Positions 24,292 through 37,500 of a stretch of 49,840 nt of DNA are shown in pieces. Both the position numbers and the translations under genes were made by a program. The notes beneath the pieces were generated by a model, which made no database searches, was not told where the DNA came from, and saw nothing but the letters and a program-made list of their open reading frames with translations. Source of the DNA: Ectocarpus siliculosus (taxonomy: Eukaryota; Sar; Phaeophyceae; Ectocarpales; Ectocarpaceae); contig FN649748.1 in NCBI GenBank assembly GCA_000310025.1, forward strand, positions 1,602,259 to 1,652,098. The letters run 5' to 3'. Position 1 is the stretch's first letter, and the number at the start of each line of letters is the position of its first letter.

Positions 24292-24500
24292 TCCTTCCCC
24301 TCTCAACCTGCAAAAACGATCCTACCCCCGGTGCTCTCAACCCAGGTTGCTTGCTGCTTGCTGCTTGCTGCTTACTGCTGCTGCGTCTGGTGCTGCTGCT
24401 GCTGCTGCTGCTGTACCCGCCTGTCTTCCCCTCTCAACTGGACAACAACCTGCAAAGACGATCCTACCCCCGGTGCTCTCAACCCCAAGTTGCGTGCTGC

Positions 24501-24555
<55 letters not shown>
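24292..24555 (+). repeat. Duplicated CTG-repeat block ending 3 nt from the fusion gene's stop codon
   Basis: A unique block (CCTCTCAAC, then CGATCCTACCCCCGGTGCTC) followed by a CTG-rich tract occurs twice, at about 24297-24415 and 24429-24555. The second tract is a pure run of 18 TGC units (24502-24555). On the minus strand it reads CAG/GCA and starts 3 nt after the TAA of the AANAT-PhzF gene, so it should be at the very start of that gene's 3' UTR. Confidence 0.9.
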
Positions 24556-24558
24556 ATG

Positions 24559-27500
24559 TTAACGACGAAAAAGCCCGCGGAACACCGAAACCGCCTTCCC
24601 CTCCAGCACGACTCGGCCGTCTCCCTCGCTTTTCAAGCCAACAGTCGCCCGAACGGTCCCCCCTCTAGGCGACGCCTGGTAACCCACCATGCATCTCCTT
24701 CGGGACGCGCGACAACAGCACCACCAGCGGCACGGCACGGCACATGCGGAATTTTATTAATTCTTTCAGCATTTTTTTCGGGCGTGAGAGACAGACAGGG
24801 CGTGAGTGAATGGCCACGGGTGGGTGAGGGGACGATTTCGCTACATGTTTACACAGACACCTACTCGTCTCCGAGACGGCACCCCCCTGGATAGGCCAAT
24901 TTTTAAAGCTCGATTGCTCCACGACCAAGATTGTGCCAACACCAAAAAGCTCGATTGCTCCGCAACCAAGATTGTGCCAACACCAAAAAACTCGATTGCT
25001 CCGCAACCAAGACTGCGCCAGCACCAAAAAACAAAGGTGGTCTTGGAACCGTCCGATTTTCAAATCTCGATTGCTCCGCAACCAAGATTGCGCCAACACC
25101 AAAAAACTCGATTGCTCCGCAACCAAGACTGCGCCAGCACCAAAAACAAAGGTGGTCTTGGAACCATCCGATTTTCAAATCTCGATTGCTCCACAACCGA
25201 TTGCAACACCAACATTCATTCATTCATTGTGGTTTTGGAACCATTCCGCAGAGGGCTTTTCCTTACACGTGTCGGGCTCTCTTTTCGCACCCCCCCTTGG
25301 ATGATGTGGAGCAATCGAATCGAGCTTTCAAAAGTCGGTCTAGGGGCGGCGCCATCTCTCCGACTCTCTGACGAAATCCAGTACCGTTCTCTTTACGTCT
25401 CCTACTTGTAGGACGAAGGTGATTGAGACTTGACTTCCAAGCAAGCAAGCCTCGTGTTTGTGACAGCAAATATCTCAACTCTCGCGTTTCGCCAACACTA
25501 GAAACACGCCCGACTGAACGGCAAATAACTCCAAGCATCTTCGAGTACCCATACCACACCAAAACTCAACCGAGCATGAAAAAAAAAAGACTACACAGGG
25601 TTGCACAGGGTAAAAACACGACATCGTCGATAAAAAAACTAGAGAAACACAGAACGTCGACACATTTATAGCTTGTCGCAGCTCACCTGCCAAGCTTAGA
25701 GCCCCAGTATGGTGCTAGGCAGCAGTGTGCCGACCCGGTCACGGGGTCCTCGTCGATGCCCATCCTAGGCGCGAAGAACCGGCTTTGAAAATCCACGGAG
25801 CCCCCGTCTGCGGAAACACGGAAAATTGCGCTAGAATTAAAAACACCCGGTCAAGCCTAAAGAGTCAGTAACAGACCGTAAGTAGACCTGTAGGCGGCGA
25901 GTTTCTTGCGATGTGAAGCGCTTTGCTAGGTCGGCGCTGATAGAGTTTACTGTTCTTCTTTCGCATCTTCGGAGCAATGGTTCGGCAGCGGGCACTACAT
26001 CAGTTGCACCAGCAGCAACAAGATGACGCGGTCCGAGACGGCTTGGGTGTTGTTGAATAGGGGCAACAATACTTGTTTTGGACTTTTCTCGCGTGGCGTG
26101 CATGCCGCGCCAGGGTAGCAAGACCGTATACTTTCACGGCCACCTTTATCGAGCGTTCTTGATTTTCTCTGTCGACAGCAATGCAGAATCACGCCCCCAA
26201 TCAACTGGTGCACAACACGATTCATGTCAACGTCGCTACTATTCTTACGGTGTCTTTGTCTACAAGGCTTCGCAAGGCGCTAACCTGTATCGCCAGCAGT
26301 GCCAATACCCTCTTCCCCAGCCTTCTTCGGTTGTTGACCGTTGCACGTCACGATGAACCCGCGGCTTTCGATTGCGGCGAGCATTCTCATGTCTGGCGCT
26401 AGAGTAGAGAACGCGTCCGGGGTCACCTAAACAGGTAGATAGTTACATGTGTACAGCGGTTTCACGAAGGAGAAAGAGGCGTGCGGATTGGGCGGGTCGT
26501 GGTGGCAAACGAGAGCAACAGCGTGGGGAAAAAAACGGACGGAAAACAAGCGAAATACTTGTCCGTACGGTAACATATGTGCCCTACGGCTATACAAGGG
26601 GAACGTAAAGTGGGGTTCTACTGTAGTCGGACACTCGCTGCCCAAGGGAGGAACAGGTGGAACTGCGGAGAAAGCGATCTAGGCATTGGCGATGGCGTTG
26701 ACTGTCTGTCCACGTGGCACGCTCGTCGAATGACTACGAGGAGCGTGCCACCGACCTCGGTATTCCTCTGAGGCGTTGGCATGCTTGACCGTTTCCCCGC
26801 AACAAGATTTTGGATCTCGACGTCAAAGGAAACAAAGTGATCTGTACCGCCAGACTGGAGTGTGTCGGTTGTACTGCTGTCCAGGAACGAAGTGAAGTCA
26901 CCGCCACGCCCAACTACAGAAATAATTACCGAACCGCAACCAGCGTGCACCAACCGGCAAACCTCTTACCGACGCTTTCAAGCGTTCCGGGTCACCAGCT
27001 GCAACATCAAACACTTCGTACGGCAACAAAAGAGGGTCCTCTGCATAATCAGCTACACGTTCCAAAAGAAGCGGCAGCCGTTACCTCAACCATGACGTCA
27101 CAGCGATTCCGGCCAACGAACAGCACCCCACCGCCCTCGCCTCCTCCTCCTCCTCCTCCGACACTAGCGAGGCCGAGGGCTTGCACGATGGCCGTGCGGC
27201 CCTCGTCGTCTTCAGGAAGCGCGTCGCCGACCACCTGGGGGGGGCGACGCCGAATCAGCCAAAAGTGATGCCGAATCAGCCAAAAGTGATGCCGAATCAG
27301 CCAAAGGGGAACGAAGCTCAGAATAAGGGGAATGAAGCTCAGAGTAAGGACCACACGGTGGCGAAATTGCTGTCCTAAGCTCGTAATATGCACTATCGCA
27401 TCGATCGTAACCCCCGAAGCAGCTCAAGGGGAACGCCTCGCAGACCAACAACAAAAAAAATGACCATGCGCCGGCGAACTTTAAATAGTTGAACTCCTAC

Positions 27501-30500
27501 TAACAGCATTTGTCACACCTTACTGCAGCAAAAAAACTTCCAAAAGCGCCCCCCACCGATCCAGGGCACCGAAGCAGCCGAAGGGGAACGAAGCACAGAG
27601 TACGCAAGGCAAAGGACAAACCCCTCAACAAATTCAAAAGTTCAACTCCTATAACTGCATTTATGCCGCCTTCGCCAAAACTTCCGAAAACGTGTCCCCC
27701 ACAGATCCAGGGCACCAAAGCAGCCAAACGGAAACACAGCCCAGAGCAATCAAAGCAAAGGATAAACGCCTCAACAAACTCTAGTTGAACTCCTCCCATT
27801 TTCAAATCTTAGATCTTGAGCTGAAAAAAATAAGCGTCCCCCATCATCTCGCCCACCTCAGACGGGAAATCCATCGCCACCCAGCCCTCCGCGTCGCGGC
27901 GGCACGTGAGAACGCCGCTCGCGGTGGAAAACCTGATGGGGAGGCCTGGCCCGACCCTCCCCTCCTCCCACAGCGCGAACGCCGCGGCGAGGGTGGCGTG
28001 TCCGCAGAGATCGACTTCTCCCCCGGGGGTGAACCAGCGCAGAGCGTAGGTTGGTCCCATTGAGGAAGCTTTGAGGGGAGGGGAGGGGAGGGGAGGGGAG
28101 AGTAAAGTCGCGCACGATGTGAATGTTGAGAACGGTGGGGGTTAGCATATGGTGGGGTCCTGGGAGAGTGCGGTTTACCGTATCCGACACGGAATAACAC
28201 ACACACAATCCAACACTTGGGGGAGAATGTTCTTCCCAACAGTCAAGGACAATCGCCCAACACGTGAACAATGAACAATGAACAATACGATACAACCGCT
28301 CCCGCTCGATACCGTCAGTACAATACAAACAGCAGCCAGCGACAGGTAAAGGTCATTTCACGAAATCCCTTATAGTAAGTCTATTCCGCTCGATCTACCC
28401 CGGCCTTCTGTCCGTGACGTCAATTACTTTGTCCTCCACCAGATCTCAGTCGTTTTTGTAGTTAAATAACTACTCAGTATAGAGGAGACGCTGTGCTACA
28501 CGTTACCGTTGACGTTGAGCATCGAGCGCAGCTGTTTTCAAGGCCTTTTTGCATCGGTGATCCAAACTGCAACTACCTGTTGGGCAACAAACCACTGACC
28601 CTACACGTTCCACGTAAGCCATTGACGGTAAAACGAAAGGTTCTCGGCAGCAGAAATTTAACACTTTTATACCCCCGTCACCACAGTTAGACAACCACCA
28701 ACACAACCACCAACACATGTTGACCATGCTAACCTTCATCCGGCGTGGCGGGTTGCAGTTCAAGGAAGCATGTTTCCGAGATGTTCATCTCCACGGCAAC
28801 CTTGTTGGAACGGGTGGGAAAAGGAGGCGGTGATCGTGAGGCAGATAGATCAGATCACACGCGCCATGGCGAGGATCGTGGGCATGAGTTAACGATGTTA
28901 AACAATGCCCGCAGGATCTGAAACAGCTTTGCGGCTTCTGACTCGGAGAAAGCCAGCAAAGGCACATCAGTCCAACTAAAAAACGCTCCTTCTCGTTGGC
29001 GCCGACCAAAACCGCGTCCTAGACGTAACAGCTACACTTAAAAAAAAACGACGAACAAGAGGAGTTTTTCAACCTGACCGTTGCTCTGCTCAACCTGACC
29101 GTTGCTCTGCTCACTCGATGTCACGGCCAGGCGACGCGAGAGGCAAAAAGGCACGCACCCGTGCAGTACGACACTCAACTCACCTTCTGCATCCAATCAG
29201 CGTCTCCACCGGCCTGGGTGAAGAACACGGCTGCCGGATTGCCGCAGAACTTTCGGCCCGAGAAGGCATCCACCTTTACCGGGACACGGAGGCGGTGTAG
29301 GGTCAGGGCACGCGAGCGGACACGCTCGACACAGCACAAACTTTCTACGAAAAAAATTTAGAAAAAAAAAAAAAAAAAACACTTGAGGAATCTGGCGGAG
29401 AAAACTACAGCTACTCTTTCAGCGGCACAGCAGTACTTGCGGCACGGTTGCGACGCGAAGATTCAATCGTTCTTGCAACCGGAGAATGCGACTGCCCACC
29501 TACGTTTGCGCTCGTCGGCGAACCGTTCGGCTTACAAAAAAACGGCGTATATTTCGCCCTTTGTCGTGGTGGCTAGCCTGCATATCGTCTTGACAGGTAA
29601 ATCAAAACAGATACCAGCGCACATCGTCTATGCAACTAAAATAGTGCCGCCAACGCCAGAAGACGGGCCTCAGAATCCACTGCACACCATTGTCTCCGGC
29701 GAACGGAGCCGTTAAACTTGTGGAGCACTCATCAGTCGAGCGGTCGTTTGGGTACTGAACTTACCCCCAAACAGGCAACGAGCCCGTTTAAGGCAAAGCA
29801 TCCACGAATCCCTCGAGACATCAACGTGGAGCACCACACGGTGGATGCATCTACGTACGTGAACTTCGGACCCCAGTCAATCGCCCACGATCCCCGCAGT
29901 CATTCGGGGCGCACCAACGCTTGCCCGAGCAGCAGGCTCAAGCAGCCGTCCACACCACAGCTAGCTCCTCTTATGATAGGGATAGGACAATACACGCGCA
30001 AAACGTTGACGTACTGCGCCGCCCCTCCCCCCCCCCCCCCCCCCTCCATCATCCAAATCCCCTTCTTCCTCAACAACAACCCCTGGGGGGCCCCTTCCTG
30101 CCCACCTCTTACACCTACTCAACACTCCCCTCCCTCCCATGCAACAAAACTCAATCCCTTCCTTTTGCCCCACACAACCCCATACGGTCAAAAATTCCCT
30201 CCATCCTCCCCCAACACAAAACTTTCACAACCCCCGAACCCCCGGGGGGGTTGGGGGGGCCCCCCCCCGGACCCCCTTCCCCCGGGGGCCCCACTGGGGG
30301 GGGGAAAAAAAAAAAAAAAAGGTTTCCCCCGNNNNNNNNNNNNNNNNNNNNNNNNNNNNNNNNNNNNNNNNNNNNNNNNNNNNNNNNNNNNNNNNNNNNN
30401 NNNNNNNNNNNNNNNNNNNNNNNNNNNNNNNGGGCCCCCCCTTCCCCCCCCCCCCCCCCCCCGACTCCCCCCTCGTCGTCACCTGTACGAATCTAAGCAG

Positions 30501-33500
30501 GCGAGGCTCAGAGGAGTCCAAGTCTATCCGCATCTCGAACCACGGGTCCTTTCCGTGCACGACCGGACTGAGGCCCTCGAGGGTGAACCCGCAGGAGGCG
30601 TACATGCCCAGCAGTCCTGCCTTCGCGATGAGGCAGACGCGCCGGACTCCCGGCTGGGTCAGGGCGACGCTCTCCACGTACGCCTTCAACCGTGTACCAT
30701 CATCGTGTGGTGAAAAAAGAAGCAAGAAGGGTTTCCCAGCAGTACGGGGGAGCGGGGTTTTTTAGGGCGGGGTCACAAATTCTCCGACTATTCTACGTGT
30801 GTGTGTGTGCGTTAACGAGCGGCGGCACGCCGGCAAACCTGGCGAAGCAGCAGCACAATGCAACCTCTGGCCCCCGCCCTCGCACTTTCTGTTTCCCCCG
30901 CCCTCGCATTTTCTAGTTGCCCTCAGTGATCCAAATTCCGGCGAGACACCTCCCCCCCGGTTCACATGAACTGCAAAATCTGTTCTAGGCCTTAGTACAA
31001 CTCCTAAGGTTCGATTTACGCCGCCGCTGCCGCACCGGCCGGGGAACGCGCGCCCCTGTTGCAGTTTTGGGGGTGAGGCTTGCCCTTGATTGAGCAGACG
31101 GAACTGAAACCGTCAGTATTCAACCAGTTTTGGTGTCCAGCAGTTGAATGTCCTACCTATTGTCGACACTCGCTTGTGTTGGCAACCGGAATTTTTTCAC
31201 CAGACCATTTTTCGTGATTCCGGACGAACCGTGCACCTACACTTCCCCCGCGTTTTATCCGGGGCACCACGCCTCCGTACTTAAAAACCCTTAAGCCCTT
31301 GTGTGCGTCAAGTTGAACGGGACCGGATGCCTGGCACGATCTAACATCTCCGCTACGCTTACTGCTGCGGTACCGCACCGGGAGAGCAGAACCCTCTCAA
31401 CCCTTAATCCTTACCCTTACCTTGAGCATCTCCGTTGCGTACCCCCTCCGGCGGAAATTTTCCGCGACGACGACTGAGTGGATGCACAGAGTCTGCCCGC
31501 TCGGGTCGTGCAGGTGCATGGACTCGTGAGACAGCTCTTCCCCCTGGCTACAGGTGCCGCACACGAAACCGACCAGTTCCCCCGCGTCGCCGCCGCCGCC
31601 GCCGCCGCCCTCTCCCTGGGGATGAACAAACGCGCGTTTGCCGCTGGGGATTGAGGGTTAGGTGTAGTCATGGTCGTGCATACCGTAGTGTCGTTAGACC
31701 ATCGACCTCGCATCTCTGCAAAGCCGGGACGGAGCACGCCGGGGTTTCACTGGACCAAGCTAGCACATCAGCGCTGTGAGGTATTCAGCGAGTCGCGTGG
31801 AGGATGGGGGGAGTTTATCCATCGTTGCTTGAACCAGGCCCTACTGAAGACAACGAGTTTCAAGCGCCGCTGAGGAATAGGGGATAGCAAGGAGGGAAAT
31901 TTTGTGGTGGCAAGGTTGGGTGGCAGCACCTTGGCATCGGCCATATATGCATCACTCCTCCAACATGCCCGATGTACTTGGGAATCTAACGTTCAATCTG
32001 TTGTGTGCCGTCGTGTTTTTCCCCCCCGACAGCATCTGCACTTGCATGCCAGCCTCTCCGGTTGCCCTGCCCAACACGACCACGAAAACAAAACCGTACG
32101 CTCTGCCTCCAAATCCCATTCGCCAGACAGCGATGCCGGTTTTCAATAACCTACTGCATCGCCCTGATCACTTCTCGCCACTCGTGTTTCCCACCTCCCG
32201 TCGGGCATGCAGTACACGGTTACAAAAGCTCGAACGGCATCGCTGATACCTCTCGCCGACTGGATCACTTATAGGGGGGAACCAATCAGTGATGAGCAAA
32301 AGTGTACATGCCGTCAAAGGCGCGTGTGTGTATCTTTTGCACCCGATACTCACGGCAGTCTTTAGAGTAGCCTCGAGGAAGAAGTCGCCGGCGTTGGCAC
32401 GGCGGAAGCGCATGTTCTCTGGGCTAGCGGCTTCGTCTTCGGGATAAGACGCCGTTTCGAGCTCCACCGCCTTCGGGAGATTGGCTTCGGAAAGCCCCCG
32501 AACCTGTGCGTTGTGCGGGGTTTTACGCGTGTTTGTCACCCGGTGTGGGGTTCGATCTGCTGGAACGTTACCTTCACCGAAAATATGGATCAAACTTTCT
32601 GAAGAGCACTAACCCCTTTTTTTGTCAAGCACAGCCTACCGCAAGATTGCGAGCCATCGCACGGTCTGGGGTCAGCGCACATTCCGGCAGTCATCGCACC
32701 ACCGTCCGTGCGATCAGAATAAAACGGCCGGTACGTGTTTTCATTCGGTTTCTGCACAGGGTCCGGAGTCATCACACAGGGGTGGTTGAGTGCCAACGAT
32801 TCCGGGGCAACTTTTTCCCCTGTAGCCATGCCGGTGCTGGCATGTTAGCTCCGCTGTACCACAAAATATGGCATCGTCGCATACCACATGTATGCGGAGA
32901 TGCGGAGGTATGGAGGAGATCAAAAACAATGGTGATTTCCATTGATATTTTGATGTTTTCATTGAGACGGTTGACTTTCTTGTCTACTCCATCAAAACAC
33001 GAGCAAGAAACCAGCAGCCACAAGCTTGGCTACTACCCTCTAACATGATTGCCAAGGTGGCTGCTGTGTGTCGCGTGTGCGCACAACTCGACGGCGGATA
33101 ATTTTGTTTTCCCGCCAGCGGGATTTCATATTTCGCCGCGTTTCATTTCGCCGCTTAGACTGTATTTGGTTTGTGCGTGTGTCTTTTCTCAAATATGATC
33201 CACCGCGCTAACTGGTTGAGTGATGGGCCTGTTGATCCTGCTGCAACCGCAGCACAACCGAGGTATCCGTAGTTCCGCAAATGTCTACTCGAGTACCGCA
33301 CATACCGGATTTATCGCACAGGGGTGCGCGTCAAACACTTAAACCAATTGATTCACTTCGATGTCCGCACAGGGTCCGGAGCCATCGCACAGAAGTCCGG
33401 AGTCATTGCACCCCTTTGCGATGAAAATGAGATGGCGAAAACGTCCAAAAAAACGACCTTCTTTGTGGGTGCGATGACTCGCAATCTTACGGCATGTTGC

Positions 33501-34315
33501 CCACGAGGTGCTGAGCTTCTGCGTACAACCTACGACATGGCAACGGCTAATGCCTAAGGAAACACGCACCTCAAGGCCTTTGCTCTCCAGCGCAGCCAAC
33601 GTCTCTGGGCTGAATGGCGGATCTGAGGTAAGCAGCAAACAGCAGCAGCAGCAGCAGCAGCAGTCGTTGATCACGGGACAGATCAAGAGAGTCACTGGAG
33701 AACGATAGAACCCAGCGGTACTCTGAAGGTCTTGGCCGTGTTCGGTTACGGGGAGTTTCTTCGGCGCAAGAGGAAAGAGGCTATCGCGTGGAACGGCAGC
33801 AGTGATCGACATCATCATGGGCGGCAGAGGGCGGGCGCATCACGCGCACACAGATCCATAGCAGCTCTGCGACTGTAGGTACAGCTGCGTACCGGCGACA
33901 GGGTGCGCGGTGGTAAGCGGGTTATTGTAGCTGGGGCGCACTCCGATAGTCTCCCGGCCGGCAATCATGTTGGTTGCACACCATATTGCCCGGGCAAGGG
34001 ACACTGTTGCCAGTCTAGTGTAGTTGCTAGCAAAGGCAGCGAGGTGCGCCGTCTACAGCAGGCAATGGAGCAGGGAGCAAACGACGCAACGCAGCGACAA
34101 CGAGACCACAACAGCAGCAGCGCAGAAGTACCTGTGGGGGACGTGTAGGTCGGACCCGACATGACGACGGCTGTTCGGATGCTACTCCTGCGCTCGCTGC
34201 TGCTGGTTCGTCCTCGGGATAAGGTGGGTTCCGAGGGAACCAGCAAGCTGGTTGCAAAGGTCGACAGCAGGAGAACCAACCACAGCGACACCGCGCGGAG
34301 CGAGGCAGGATCCAT
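24559..34315 (-). CDS. Fusion protein: AANAT-type GNAT acetyltransferase + PhzF-type isomerase domain
   Basis: Twelve minus-strand exons: 34132-34315, 33570-33622, 32354-32503, 31421-31615, 30483-30683, 29184-29273, 28734-28800, 27857-28068, 27085-27234, 26285-26426, 25687-25807, 24559-24697 (567 residues, splice phases consistent throughout). Residues 1-61: hydrophobic [18 protein letters not shown] plus a Ser/Arg-rich stretch, a likely targeting peptide. Residues ~80-255: non-vertebrate AANAT-like GNAT domain, with [27 protein letters not shown] (His175), the acetyl-CoA loop RRRGYAT, MYASCGF (Tyr222) and VVHGKDPW. Residues ~260-567: complete PhzF fold, with [24 protein letters not shown] (Glu300 at the PhzF catalytic position), [36 protein letters not shown] (Asp502) and GYQASPRGG. 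AANATs acetylate arylalkylamines; PhzF relatives isomerise or epimerise small substrates. The substrate is unknown. Both active sites look intact. Confidence 0.88.
24872..25371. repeat. Family-1 inverted-repeat element with internal tandem array
   Basis: Ends of about 50 nt are imperfect inverted repeats: GACGGCACCCCCCTGGATAG to AAAGCTCGATTGCTCCAC on the left, GTGGAGCAATCGAATCGAGC to CGGTCTAGG and GCCATCTCTCCG on the right. Between about 24908 and 25200 the left-end block CTCGATTGCTCCGCAACCAA with GCGCCAACACCAAAAA is repeated about six times (~42-bp period, some ~80-bp units with AAAGGTGGTCTTGGAACC). The element lies in the last intron of the AANAT-PhzF gene. Confidence 0.8.
27245..27315 (+). 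repeat. 21-bp tandem repeat in an intron
   Basis: ATGCCGAATCAGCCAAAAGTG and near copies repeat three times, followed by two AAGGGGAAYGAAGCTCAGA-like units. The array starts about 10 nt upstream of the acceptor of the fusion gene's exon 27085-27234, so it lies next to, and possibly within, branch-point sequence. Confidence 0.8.
27488..27800 (+). repeat. ~150-bp tandem duplication in an intron
   Basis: Two diverged units start at 27488 and 27640 (GTTSAACTCCTAY then GCATTT). Each contains AAAACTTCC, a CCCCCAC..ATCCAGGGCACC block, AAGCAGCC and CCTCAACAAA. A third partial unit starts at 27784. The array fills the intron between fusion-gene exons 27857-28068 and 27085-27234. Confidence 0.75.
30332..30431. 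other. Assembly gap (100 N)
   Basis: Exactly 100 N, the usual placeholder for a gap of unknown size. The flanks (about 30240-30331 and 30432-30475) are long runs of C, G and A that look like low-quality read ends. The gap falls in the intron between the last GNAT exon and the first PhzF exon of the fusion gene, so no coding sequence is known to be lost, but the true intron length is unknown. Confidence 0.98.
33640..33664 (+). repeat. Short CAG repeat in intron 1 of the fusion gene
   Basis: About eight CAG units lie next to the acceptor side of intron 1 of the AANAT-PhzF gene, where on the minus strand they read CTG and serve as part of the polypyrimidine-like tract upstream of the exon at 33570-33622. 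Confidence 0.8.
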
Positions 34316-34534
34316 GTGGCTACCAGGAAATGCGGCCAAATTCGGCTGCTGAGGCGGCGAGGGAGTTGTAGAGAATGGGTTCTTGCGACTTTCTCGTTCT
34401 CGCTATGTAATTGCGCCGCGCCCTAGCAAGCTTGCTAGCTGTGCAAGGCAGCCTCGAGCCCAGAGTCTTAAAGACGGAGGCAGAGGATAGACTGAAAACT
34501 TACGTAGCTCACGGGACGCACTGGAGCTCACGAG
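34316..34534. promoter_or_regulatory. Short divergent intergenic region (candidate bidirectional promoter)
   Basis: Only 219 nt separate the start codons of the AANAT-PhzF fusion gene (ATG 34315, minus) and the trigger-factor-like gene (ATG 34535, plus). Both 5' leaders and core promoters must share this interval unless a leader exon is missed. I see no clear TATA box. Both products have N-terminal targeting sequence, so shared control is conceivable but not shown. Confidence 0.55.
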
Positions 34535-37500
34535 ATGATGTCTTCAGCCTGCTCGTGTGCTTCGTTGGCGGTCGTAGCGATAGCATGCGTCGTCTTGCCC
34601 GGCGATGGCTTTGTTGCGAGATCGCCAGCACCGCTCATGAGGCAAGCCTCCCGGCACGTGCCAGCCGGGCGAAGTAGATTAACGACAGCCGCCGCATCGG
34701 GCCGAAGAACGACGAAGATGGCTGGCGATCTCGATGTGAGTCTTTTTCTCTACCTCTGCGTGGATTGTGAGGATATTGGCGGCAGCCCGGTTTATGTCGT
34801 GTTACCGCTGTATCCGTCTTGCAGGTTTTGGCTTCGGTTGGGGTTTTGCTGTGAAGAGTCAACAGCAGCCCTGGGTGCTGTTGTGCTGTTCCTGGGTGCT
34901 GTTACCACCTACTACTGCTGTACGCTGCCGATGGACGAGCGAAGTCCTAGCCGATTATCTAGCTAAACGCGAATGAGACCCCACCAAACACTGCTGTTGT
35001 GCGCATCTCGTTAAAGCCATGGCTACGCTGTGTCCAACGCCACGTCGTCAAGCACAGCTTTGTTGCATGCTACTGCTGCGGTACACTGCTGTTACCGACC
35101 AAGCAAGATACATGTTGTAAGTAGTTCGGAGAATGGTTGAATTGTTGCGGGCCGGCCGTTGTCGTTAATCTTGCTTCCAGTAACCACTGCTCAACACTTC
35201 CGTATGCACGATCTCTCTACTGCCACTGCCAGGAAACGAAAGGAGTCACCGTGGACCTAGCGGAATACAAGGGTGGGGCGGTTACTGTGCGGGTGCCGCT
35301 CATCGAGATCACCGAAGCGCAGGCAAGAGCAGAAGAACAGACACCGTGCACGACGATTGTTGCAATGTTTCCCTTCCTTTAGCCCACACTACTTTTCGTT
35401 AGAAGCAGGCTGAAGACTTGACTGTTGGTGCTGCTGCACGTGCTATGCACCGCAGGCAGAGTTTATCTCCCGTGAAACGATGGGTGTGTGGGGATTCGTA
35501 TAGGCAACTCTAAGCGACTCTTCTTCATGCCCATACGTCGCACCTATGTACGTTTTCGTCCTCCGTATTCTGAGTATGCGTTTGCTTTTCCGACGGGATA
35601 CGGTGTTGGGTGTACATGTACTCCATAGTCTCATCTCGGTGTAGACTGCGGACTTTCCAATGATTGTCAGCTTCGTTCTGCTGTTTCTCGCATGCTACAC
35701 TGACGGTATGTGACTGTGGCTTGTTGGCCCTTCTCACCACGCAGGTGGAGGCGGCCTTGCAGAAGTCGAAAAAGCCGTACAAGCTTATCCCGGTCCGGTT
35801 CGTCGAGGAGGGGGGTACGAAGATGGGCCACACGGTCATCATGAACTGGGACGCCAAGGTGCAAAGGTGTTTGCTATCTTGAAGTAATAAATCCTCGCAT
35901 GTTCAATATATGGTGGTACACGTAGGCGGTGCTCACACCAGCACGGCCGATGTGCCGTGTGTTTTTCATATTAGTGCCGAAGCTTGGGTACAATGTTTAC
36001 AAGCTGAGAGCAGCCAGTTGCAACACGCATATCAACGCCGCTTAACACAGCCGTGAGCACTTAGTGGGAATCCTGAACGGGAAGTCGAGAAGAGTTTGTT
36101 TTGCCCACCAACGGTTTGTAGGCATCCATAAACACAAGCCTGTCCCTCCCCCGACCCAGCTCCGTTGCTCCTGCTGCTTTGCACTTCATCATTATTTCCC
36201 GGCCTTCGGACGTGCCACCCTCATTATTGCTCTTTGCAACATCTTCTTGTGTTCCCAACAATCTTTCCTTTGTTTCGCGGCGGCTTGTTTGCATGTCTTT
36301 TTTCGCGTTGGCGTCGACGTGAACCACCTGACTGTCCAAGGTCGACGGCCGGCCCGTCCCTGGCGCTAAGAAGGAGAACTTCGAGCTAGAATTCAAGGTG
36401 AGAGGGTGATCACCACGACGAGATTTTGTCTGCAGTGCTAATATACTGTGCGAGTTCTCGCCTACCCCATCCTATCCTACGCATGTACGACTTGGCGCGG
36501 CGTGTTCGCACAGACCTTATCGGGACAAAACACAACAGCTGGAAAGGTTCATGTGCCCACGTGTGTGGGTGTACCGTGCTCCAAAGAATCCCGAACGCAA
36601 CACATACACGTGATACCGCCGCGCGTTCGATGTCAGGTAGCTGTCACCATGCCTCTAATGGCGGCACTATTTAGATGTATCAAGGCCACAGCGTTCTAAA
36701 TGAACGAAGATGTAGCACACAACACGCGAAAATGACGTATTTTTGGCCTCGTTGTGGCCGTGTCGCGCTCGGATCGTGTTGTCTCCGCGGCGTGACGGGA
36801 AAAAAACAGGAGGGACACCCCGAGCCGTGGGCAACGTTTGCGACGAAAATGGCCGTCGGTATGGGACAAATGGAGACCAAGGTCTTCCCGGCAACCTTCC
36901 CGGAAGACTTCGAGGTACGGACAAACGGGACAGGATTGATAGCCATGGCGGTGTTCTTGCGACCGATGCAATTCTGACGGAAAGTCGTCCTAAAAGGGAA
37001 GCGGTTTGTGTTGGTTGCTGGTGGAAGTAGGCGCTGATATAAGTATGGAGTCTTAGCACTGCTGTGTCGTAAATTCAGGCACTTGATACCCCACGCGACA
37101 CCACTGGCGCTTTTCGACATGCCACAGGGGCCACTGCTTCCTCCACCTTGATTTAACCACGCCTTTGAGCAGTACACGTGCGACCTTCAGCTCTCGATGG
37201 GCTGCATCGGTATGAACGCGTGCTTGCCGGCTTTCCAAATGTTTGTGTATGTGCGTCGTTCGTTATTGGCCCGCGATGGAGTTCACGTCGCCACAGATAT
37301 CGTGCGTCGTATTGTCACCATTGCACATGTAGCTGTAGATATCTACTGTTGAGACTGAAGTTGCTTGTCATCTTCACATCTTGTCACCTTCACACGTCAG
37401 ATGTTGCGGTCTTTTTATGCGGTACATATGCTGTCCGCCAAAGTATCCCGAGCAAGCGTGTGTGCTTCCCCGTGCGCGACAAATCCTCTTGCTCTGTTTC

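Follow-up and report, generated by a model that had tools for sequence, protein, structure and literature searches.

A probable fusion of an AANAT-like N-acetyltransferase with a PhzF-family isomerase in the brown alga Ectocarpus siliculosus

Does Ectocarpus siliculosus make, from a single gene, a protein that is both an acetyltransferase of the GNAT type and an isomerase of the PhzF family? The question is raised by a locus in a window of 49,840 nucleotides, the whole stretch of DNA analysed here (assembly GCA_000310025.1, contig FN649748.1, positions 1,602,259 to 1,652,098), to which all coordinates below refer. PhzF-like proteins are widespread, but to our knowledge no substrate has been established for those of eukaryotes, PBLD for example. 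Were such a domain naturally fused to an enzyme whose chemistry is known, the choice for the PhzF domain would narrow to a molecule that carries, or leads to, a primary amine, and the open substrate question of the PhzF family would become testable by assay. Our reading of the locus is that one gene probably encodes a single polypeptide, with an AANAT-like N-acetyltransferase linked to a complete PhzF isomerase of the short CGHAT kind, and that this is probably a new domain architecture formed from two known enzyme families.

Gene model and the two domains

Rebuilt exon by exon, the gene runs on the minus strand from 34315 to 24559 in 12 exons, whose 1704 nt contain a single, terminal stop and encode 567 amino acids. 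Each of the 11 introns (383–1209 nt) has a GT donor and an AG acceptor, and the phases agree throughout. A preliminary description of the locus had given a twelve-exon model with matching splice phase at all introns and no stop between the two domains; the rebuild bears out both points, the frame being open to the terminal stop. Both domains are present in the order GNAT, PhzF, in one reading frame and with conserved active-site residues, and the last GNAT exon ends in a stretch that resembles a PhzF strand. That the whole is read from a single transcript is what we infer from this model.

Exon 1 (34132–34315; all exons lie on the minus strand), placed by phase and splice sites, supplies the start codon and a leader, hydrophobic at first and then rich in serine and arginine, which may be a targeting sequence for the plastid or the secretory route. 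The GNAT domain starts with KGLEV in exon 2 (33570–33622), placed by phase, splice sites and alignment; KGLEV|R, across the boundary of exons 2 and 3, aligns with GLEIR of a Treponema GNAT. Exon 3 (32354–32503), with the YPEDEAAS region, and exon 4 (31421–31615), with C173, H175 and the sequence RRRGYAT, which we take to be the acetyl-CoA loop, were placed by alignment and splice sites. Exon 5 (30483–30683), identified from alignment and junction scores, carries the end of the GNAT domain (Y222 and FEMRIDL), the linker DSSEP, which puts about five residues between GNAT and PhzF, and the probable first PhzF strand, RLLRFVQ. The remainder of the PhzF domain is spread over seven exons. Exon 6 (29184–29273), exon 9 (27085–27234, with a glycine-rich insert), exon 10 (26285–26426) and exon 12 (24559–24697, the C-terminus and the stop codon) were placed by profile match and splice sites, and exon 7 (28734–28800, catalytic S299-E300), exon 8 (27857–28068, CGHAT with H337) and exon 11 (25687–25807, D502 and S507) by profile and alignment. 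With other in-frame acceptors exon 12 would begin at 24694 or 24664.

A thirteenth exon of 23 amino acids, at 27038–26970 on the minus strand, was considered and rejected. It splits the PhzF match into two parts of 135.5 and 111.4 bits, while the product of the 12 exons gives one PhzF domain of 249.1 bits over profile positions 3–263 of 266; because the additional exon breaks the match in two, the twelve-exon model is the better one. The stretch itself, 69 nt open in frame with GT/AG borders, is perhaps an optional exon or perhaps due to chance. The query for the PhzF search against solved chains and for the second-copy, prokaryotic-locus and viral-contig searches included it; the Pfam search was repeated without it.

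In the 567-residue product, PF02567 is matched over all of its positions, 1–281 of 281 (E 4.4e-51, 174.5 bits against a curated cut-off of 27), and the PhzF domain is thus complete, as had been claimed. Alignment places E300, H337, D502 and S507 opposite E45, H74, D208 and S213 of the PhzF of phenazine synthesis, all four of which therefore have algal counterparts. The adjacency of S44 and E45 is repeated in S299-E300, and the spacing of five between D208 and S213 in D502 and S507. The assignment of the four numbered PhzF residues to their motifs is in part presumed. With its complete domain and its S-E pair, the algal half resembles the PhzF family isomerases (PF02567, TIGR00654; 1s7j). The side chains of E45, H74, D208 and S213 are those in the quantum-mechanical part of one study (PMC5524880). 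The solved chain nearest to the algal half is 1s7j (2.6e-38), whereas the phenazine PhzF 1u1v is more distant (5.3e-10), both values having been obtained with the query that included the rejected exon. We take the 1s7j-like short CGHAT kind of PhzF to be that of PBLD. A search of the genome for PhzA/B gave no match, but the control of the same search was likewise empty, so that the result does not speak for absence.

The Pfam match of the GNAT half is modest (PF00583, E 6e-8, 33.4 bits). Its best solved match is sheep AANAT (1b6b, E 4.1e-12), a similarity specific to AANAT that is known here by sequence only. Bacterial GNATs related to it were found in 22 plasmid records, and among the 20 matches listed they cover 90–99% of the query at 26–33% identity. 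In the alignment Y222 falls on the tyrosine of AANAT that protonates the CoA thiolate, presumably Tyr168, and this residue, like the overall similarity, is common to AANAT, the bacterial AANAT-like GNATs and the algal half. The role of the AANAT tyrosine in protonating the thiolate is given in PMC4730296. Vertebrate AANAT has two catalytic histidines, but the algal half has only one of them: H122 corresponds to H175, and H120 is replaced by Cys173. PMC2897805, which contrasts vertebrate with non-vertebrate enzymes in this respect, describes the histidine pair as missing in the AANATs of amphioxus, and both histidines are absent in all three aligned bacterial relatives.

H175, Y222, E300, H337 (of CGHAT) and D502 all lie where the preliminary description had put them. 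Its statement that both catalytic signatures are intact stands for the PhzF residues, Y222 and H175 and fails for the position of H120. The label 'AANAT-type' should be narrowed to an AANAT-like GNAT in which the histidine pair of vertebrates is incomplete. The lost histidine, the modest Pfam score of the GNAT half and the glycine-rich insert in the PhzF half would suit a fused gene in which only one domain works and the other serves as a scaffold or regulator. We consider such a division of roles possible but doubtful: Y222 is retained, the three aligned bacterial relatives do without both histidines, and on the other side all four of the PhzF active-site residues examined are retained.

The join between exon 5 and exon 6

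The join of exon 5 to exon 6 is the weak point of the model, and we think it probably correct. Intron 5 (1209 nt) contains an assembly gap, visible in the sequence as a run of 100 N at 30332–30431 between low-complexity flanks. Three bacterial AANAT-like proteins end no more than two residues from the strand aligned to FEMRIDL; the algal exon 5 continues from there to a GT donor. The N-terminal strands of bacterial PhzF proteins read, for example, MQLLQIDAF or VPLYQIDAF, a pattern that is fitted by LRFVQ of exon 5 followed by VDAF of exon 6. Unlike AANAT and the AANAT-like GNATs, the algal GNAT half would thus probably be fused at its C-terminus to a PhzF domain.

Instead of one fused gene, the region could hold two neighbours of the same orientation: first an AANAT-like gene, ending within the gap or beyond it, and then a PhzF gene with its first exon inside the gap or somewhere between there and exon 6. 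The true length of the gap may differ from 100 N, its flanks are of low complexity, and the frame of exon 5 is open as far as the gap, so that the true end of this exon is not visible. Set against this, exon 5 carries its PhzF-like strand in phase and beyond the point at which the three GNAT relatives end, and intron 5, gap included, is little longer than the other introns (383–1066 nt). We therefore regard two genes as unlikely, and the scores at the junction bear further on the choice between them and a fused gene.

With position weights built from 23 bacterial PhzF starts, the start methionine being left out, LRFVQ scores 7.78 and ranks fourth, itself counted, among the 5537 open pentapeptides followed by a GT on both strands of the window. 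Intron 5 contains 74 such pentapeptides, the best of which scores 1.03 against the 7.78 of LRFVQ; for the 21 with an upstream ATG the best value is −1.47. When the whole PhzF profile is used, the fused reading scores 252.2 bits, exon 6 read upstream 248.7 and a version with neither extension 247.0. The tail of exon 5 thus adds 5.2 bits to exon 6 onward and the upstream reading adds 1.7, a gain that would speak for a separate PhzF gene, except that the open frame of exon 6, which starts at 29357, has no upstream ATG in frame.

The control with the whole profile is less sharp than the pentapeptide ranking. At 20 of 2132 minus-strand sites the score reached at least 252.2: ten are stretches of the gene's own PhzF exons, one is the junction and nine are unrelated. 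One of the nine lies in intron 5 itself (29543), where a stretch from an ATG at 29624 to 29544, ending in GEIYA and spliced in phase to 29273, equals the fused score of 252.2 bits. This stretch would give a separate PhzF gene its start, but GEIYA has a pentapeptide weight of only −1.85 against 7.78 for LRFVQ, and its donor, GTTTTT, is presumably poor by the splice consensus. The residues at the junction had already been seen when all of these tests were designed. For this reason, and because of the whole-profile control, we lowered our confidence in the fusion to the level stated at the outset, at which a fused gene is still the favoured reading.

The run of N between the two halves also raises the question of an assembly artefact, in which scaffolding joined two pieces across the gap. 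The halves lie on the same strand and in the same order and seem to complete each other at the junction, which would be rare for a random join, and exon 5 was found once in the assembly. We judge an artefact to be very improbable.

Copy number and relatives

By profile search, this gene is the only one found with PF02567 in the 189-Mb assembly of 492 contigs, and no second copy of either half was found; such searches proceed exon by exon, and weak copies may escape them. The five other genome matches to the protein query that included the rejected exon all had E ≥ 0.2.

Patterns derived from that same query led to 36 prokaryotic PhzF loci. For 24 of them the frames were read (one, L018, could not be recovered) and up to 60 residues upstream were viewed; the three longest frames, scanned over their full length, have no GNAT. 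In a tree of 23 of these loci and the alga, the algal domain sits on a long branch beside a Geitlerinema (96/91). This is only a hint of a possible cyanobacterial source for the algal PhzF domain, because the query itself had supplied the patterns by which the loci in the tree were found. Among 292 cyanobacterial genomes, 118 have a PF02567 match above the cut-off, and of 200 genomes from the phylum to which Marinobacter belongs, 107 have one at E ≤ 1e-15; the algal protein query matched 10 of 100 genomes from the phylum of Streptomyces.

Pfam was run on all 11 listed frames of at least 414 amino acids from the first two sets of genomes and on three from the Streptomyces phylum, a selection that a very short fusion could escape. 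Thirteen of these 14 long frames have PhzF and no GNAT, one of them (L043) over the 816 of its 1032 residues that were covered; the fourteenth (L040) has a 288-residue PhzF frame without an upstream extension. The long frames in L005, L006 and L012 contain no GNAT, nor do two further long frames of G004, one of them covered for 293 of 407 residues. There was, then, no fused GNAT-PhzF protein among the frames examined from the 292, 200 and 100 prokaryotic genomes: in the alga PhzF makes up the C-terminal half of a longer chain, whereas the bacterial relatives examined have no GNAT on the PhzF frame. Since no fused relative was found, there is no independent sign that the join is conserved. Three plasmid matches gave the impression of extending into the GNAT half. 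Two (H3 and H5) were rejected, as other annotated genes upstream overlap them, and the third (H2) has no annotation. Viral contigs gave no pattern match to the algal query with the thirteenth exon.

Of 95 genes that neighbour PhzF at 24 loci, three match GNAT families, counts too few to argue from for an operon link between the two families. The 95 come from 138 frames called at 26 of the 36 loci; the PhzF frames, L012, L036 and some others were not included. At one locus (L038), on a plasmid of Azospirillum lipoferum, GNAT genes, a threo-3-hydroxy-L-aspartate ammonia-lyase, PhzF and a LysE transporter lie close together. In the titles and abstract openings of the papers listed by open-access literature searches for the pairing, we found no description of GNAT or AANAT with PhzF in one protein. 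This agrees with the earlier remark that the pairing is undescribed, within a scope that leaves eukaryotic protein databases outside.

Possible function and surroundings of the gene

Because E300, H337, D502 and S507 of the PhzF half and Y222 of the GNAT half are kept, a bifunctional enzyme is plausible; both activities, and their coupling, are predictions from the residues. The GNAT domain would use acetyl-CoA to acetylate a small primary amine, and the PhzF domain, with Glu300 as proton shuttle, would isomerise a related substrate that is cyclic or resembles an amino acid. One domain might then cap an amine that the other makes or uses, before or after isomerisation, and this could be the reason for the fusion. 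The aminoketone that PhzF yields is prone to self-condensation, which is why we propose capping. An aminoketone is the product of PhzF chemistry (PMC5524880). A pathway of two steps, acetylation and isomerisation in either order, may be envisaged, and it is equally possible that the two domains act on unrelated molecules. More speculative, and in our view rather improbable, is a dedicated bifunctional enzyme in which isomerase and acetyltransferase act in turn and the product is passed across the five-residue linker, in an uncharted pathway of aromatic amines or cyclic amino acids of fucoxanthin-bearing algae.

Several observations concern the surroundings of the gene and the genome at large. 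By eye, a stretch like CTCGATTGCTCCGCAACCAAGATTG recurs several times in the last intron (24900–25200), and CTG-rich runs lie past the stop codon (about 24400–24555). Outside 24500–34400, two of the 57 open frames scanned in the window (436 are listed) match V-ATPase subunit C. The Rubisco large subunit gave no match in the genome assembly searched. Light-harvesting proteins gave 87 matches in the genome, of which one was translated and had FCP17 of 9ygv as its nearest match, followed by other fucoxanthin proteins, and they mark the genome as that of a fucoxanthin-bearing alga; 20 of the matches, on contigs C92, C232, C488, C11 and C18, have an identical profile score, and 18 of these 20 lie on three contigs. 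On the plus strand, 220 bases away from where the fusion gene starts, a divergent gene begins at 34535–34740 with the leader MMSSACSC...GDGFVARSP, which we take to resemble heterokont plastid presequences, and it is possible that this gene and the fusion gene share a promoter.
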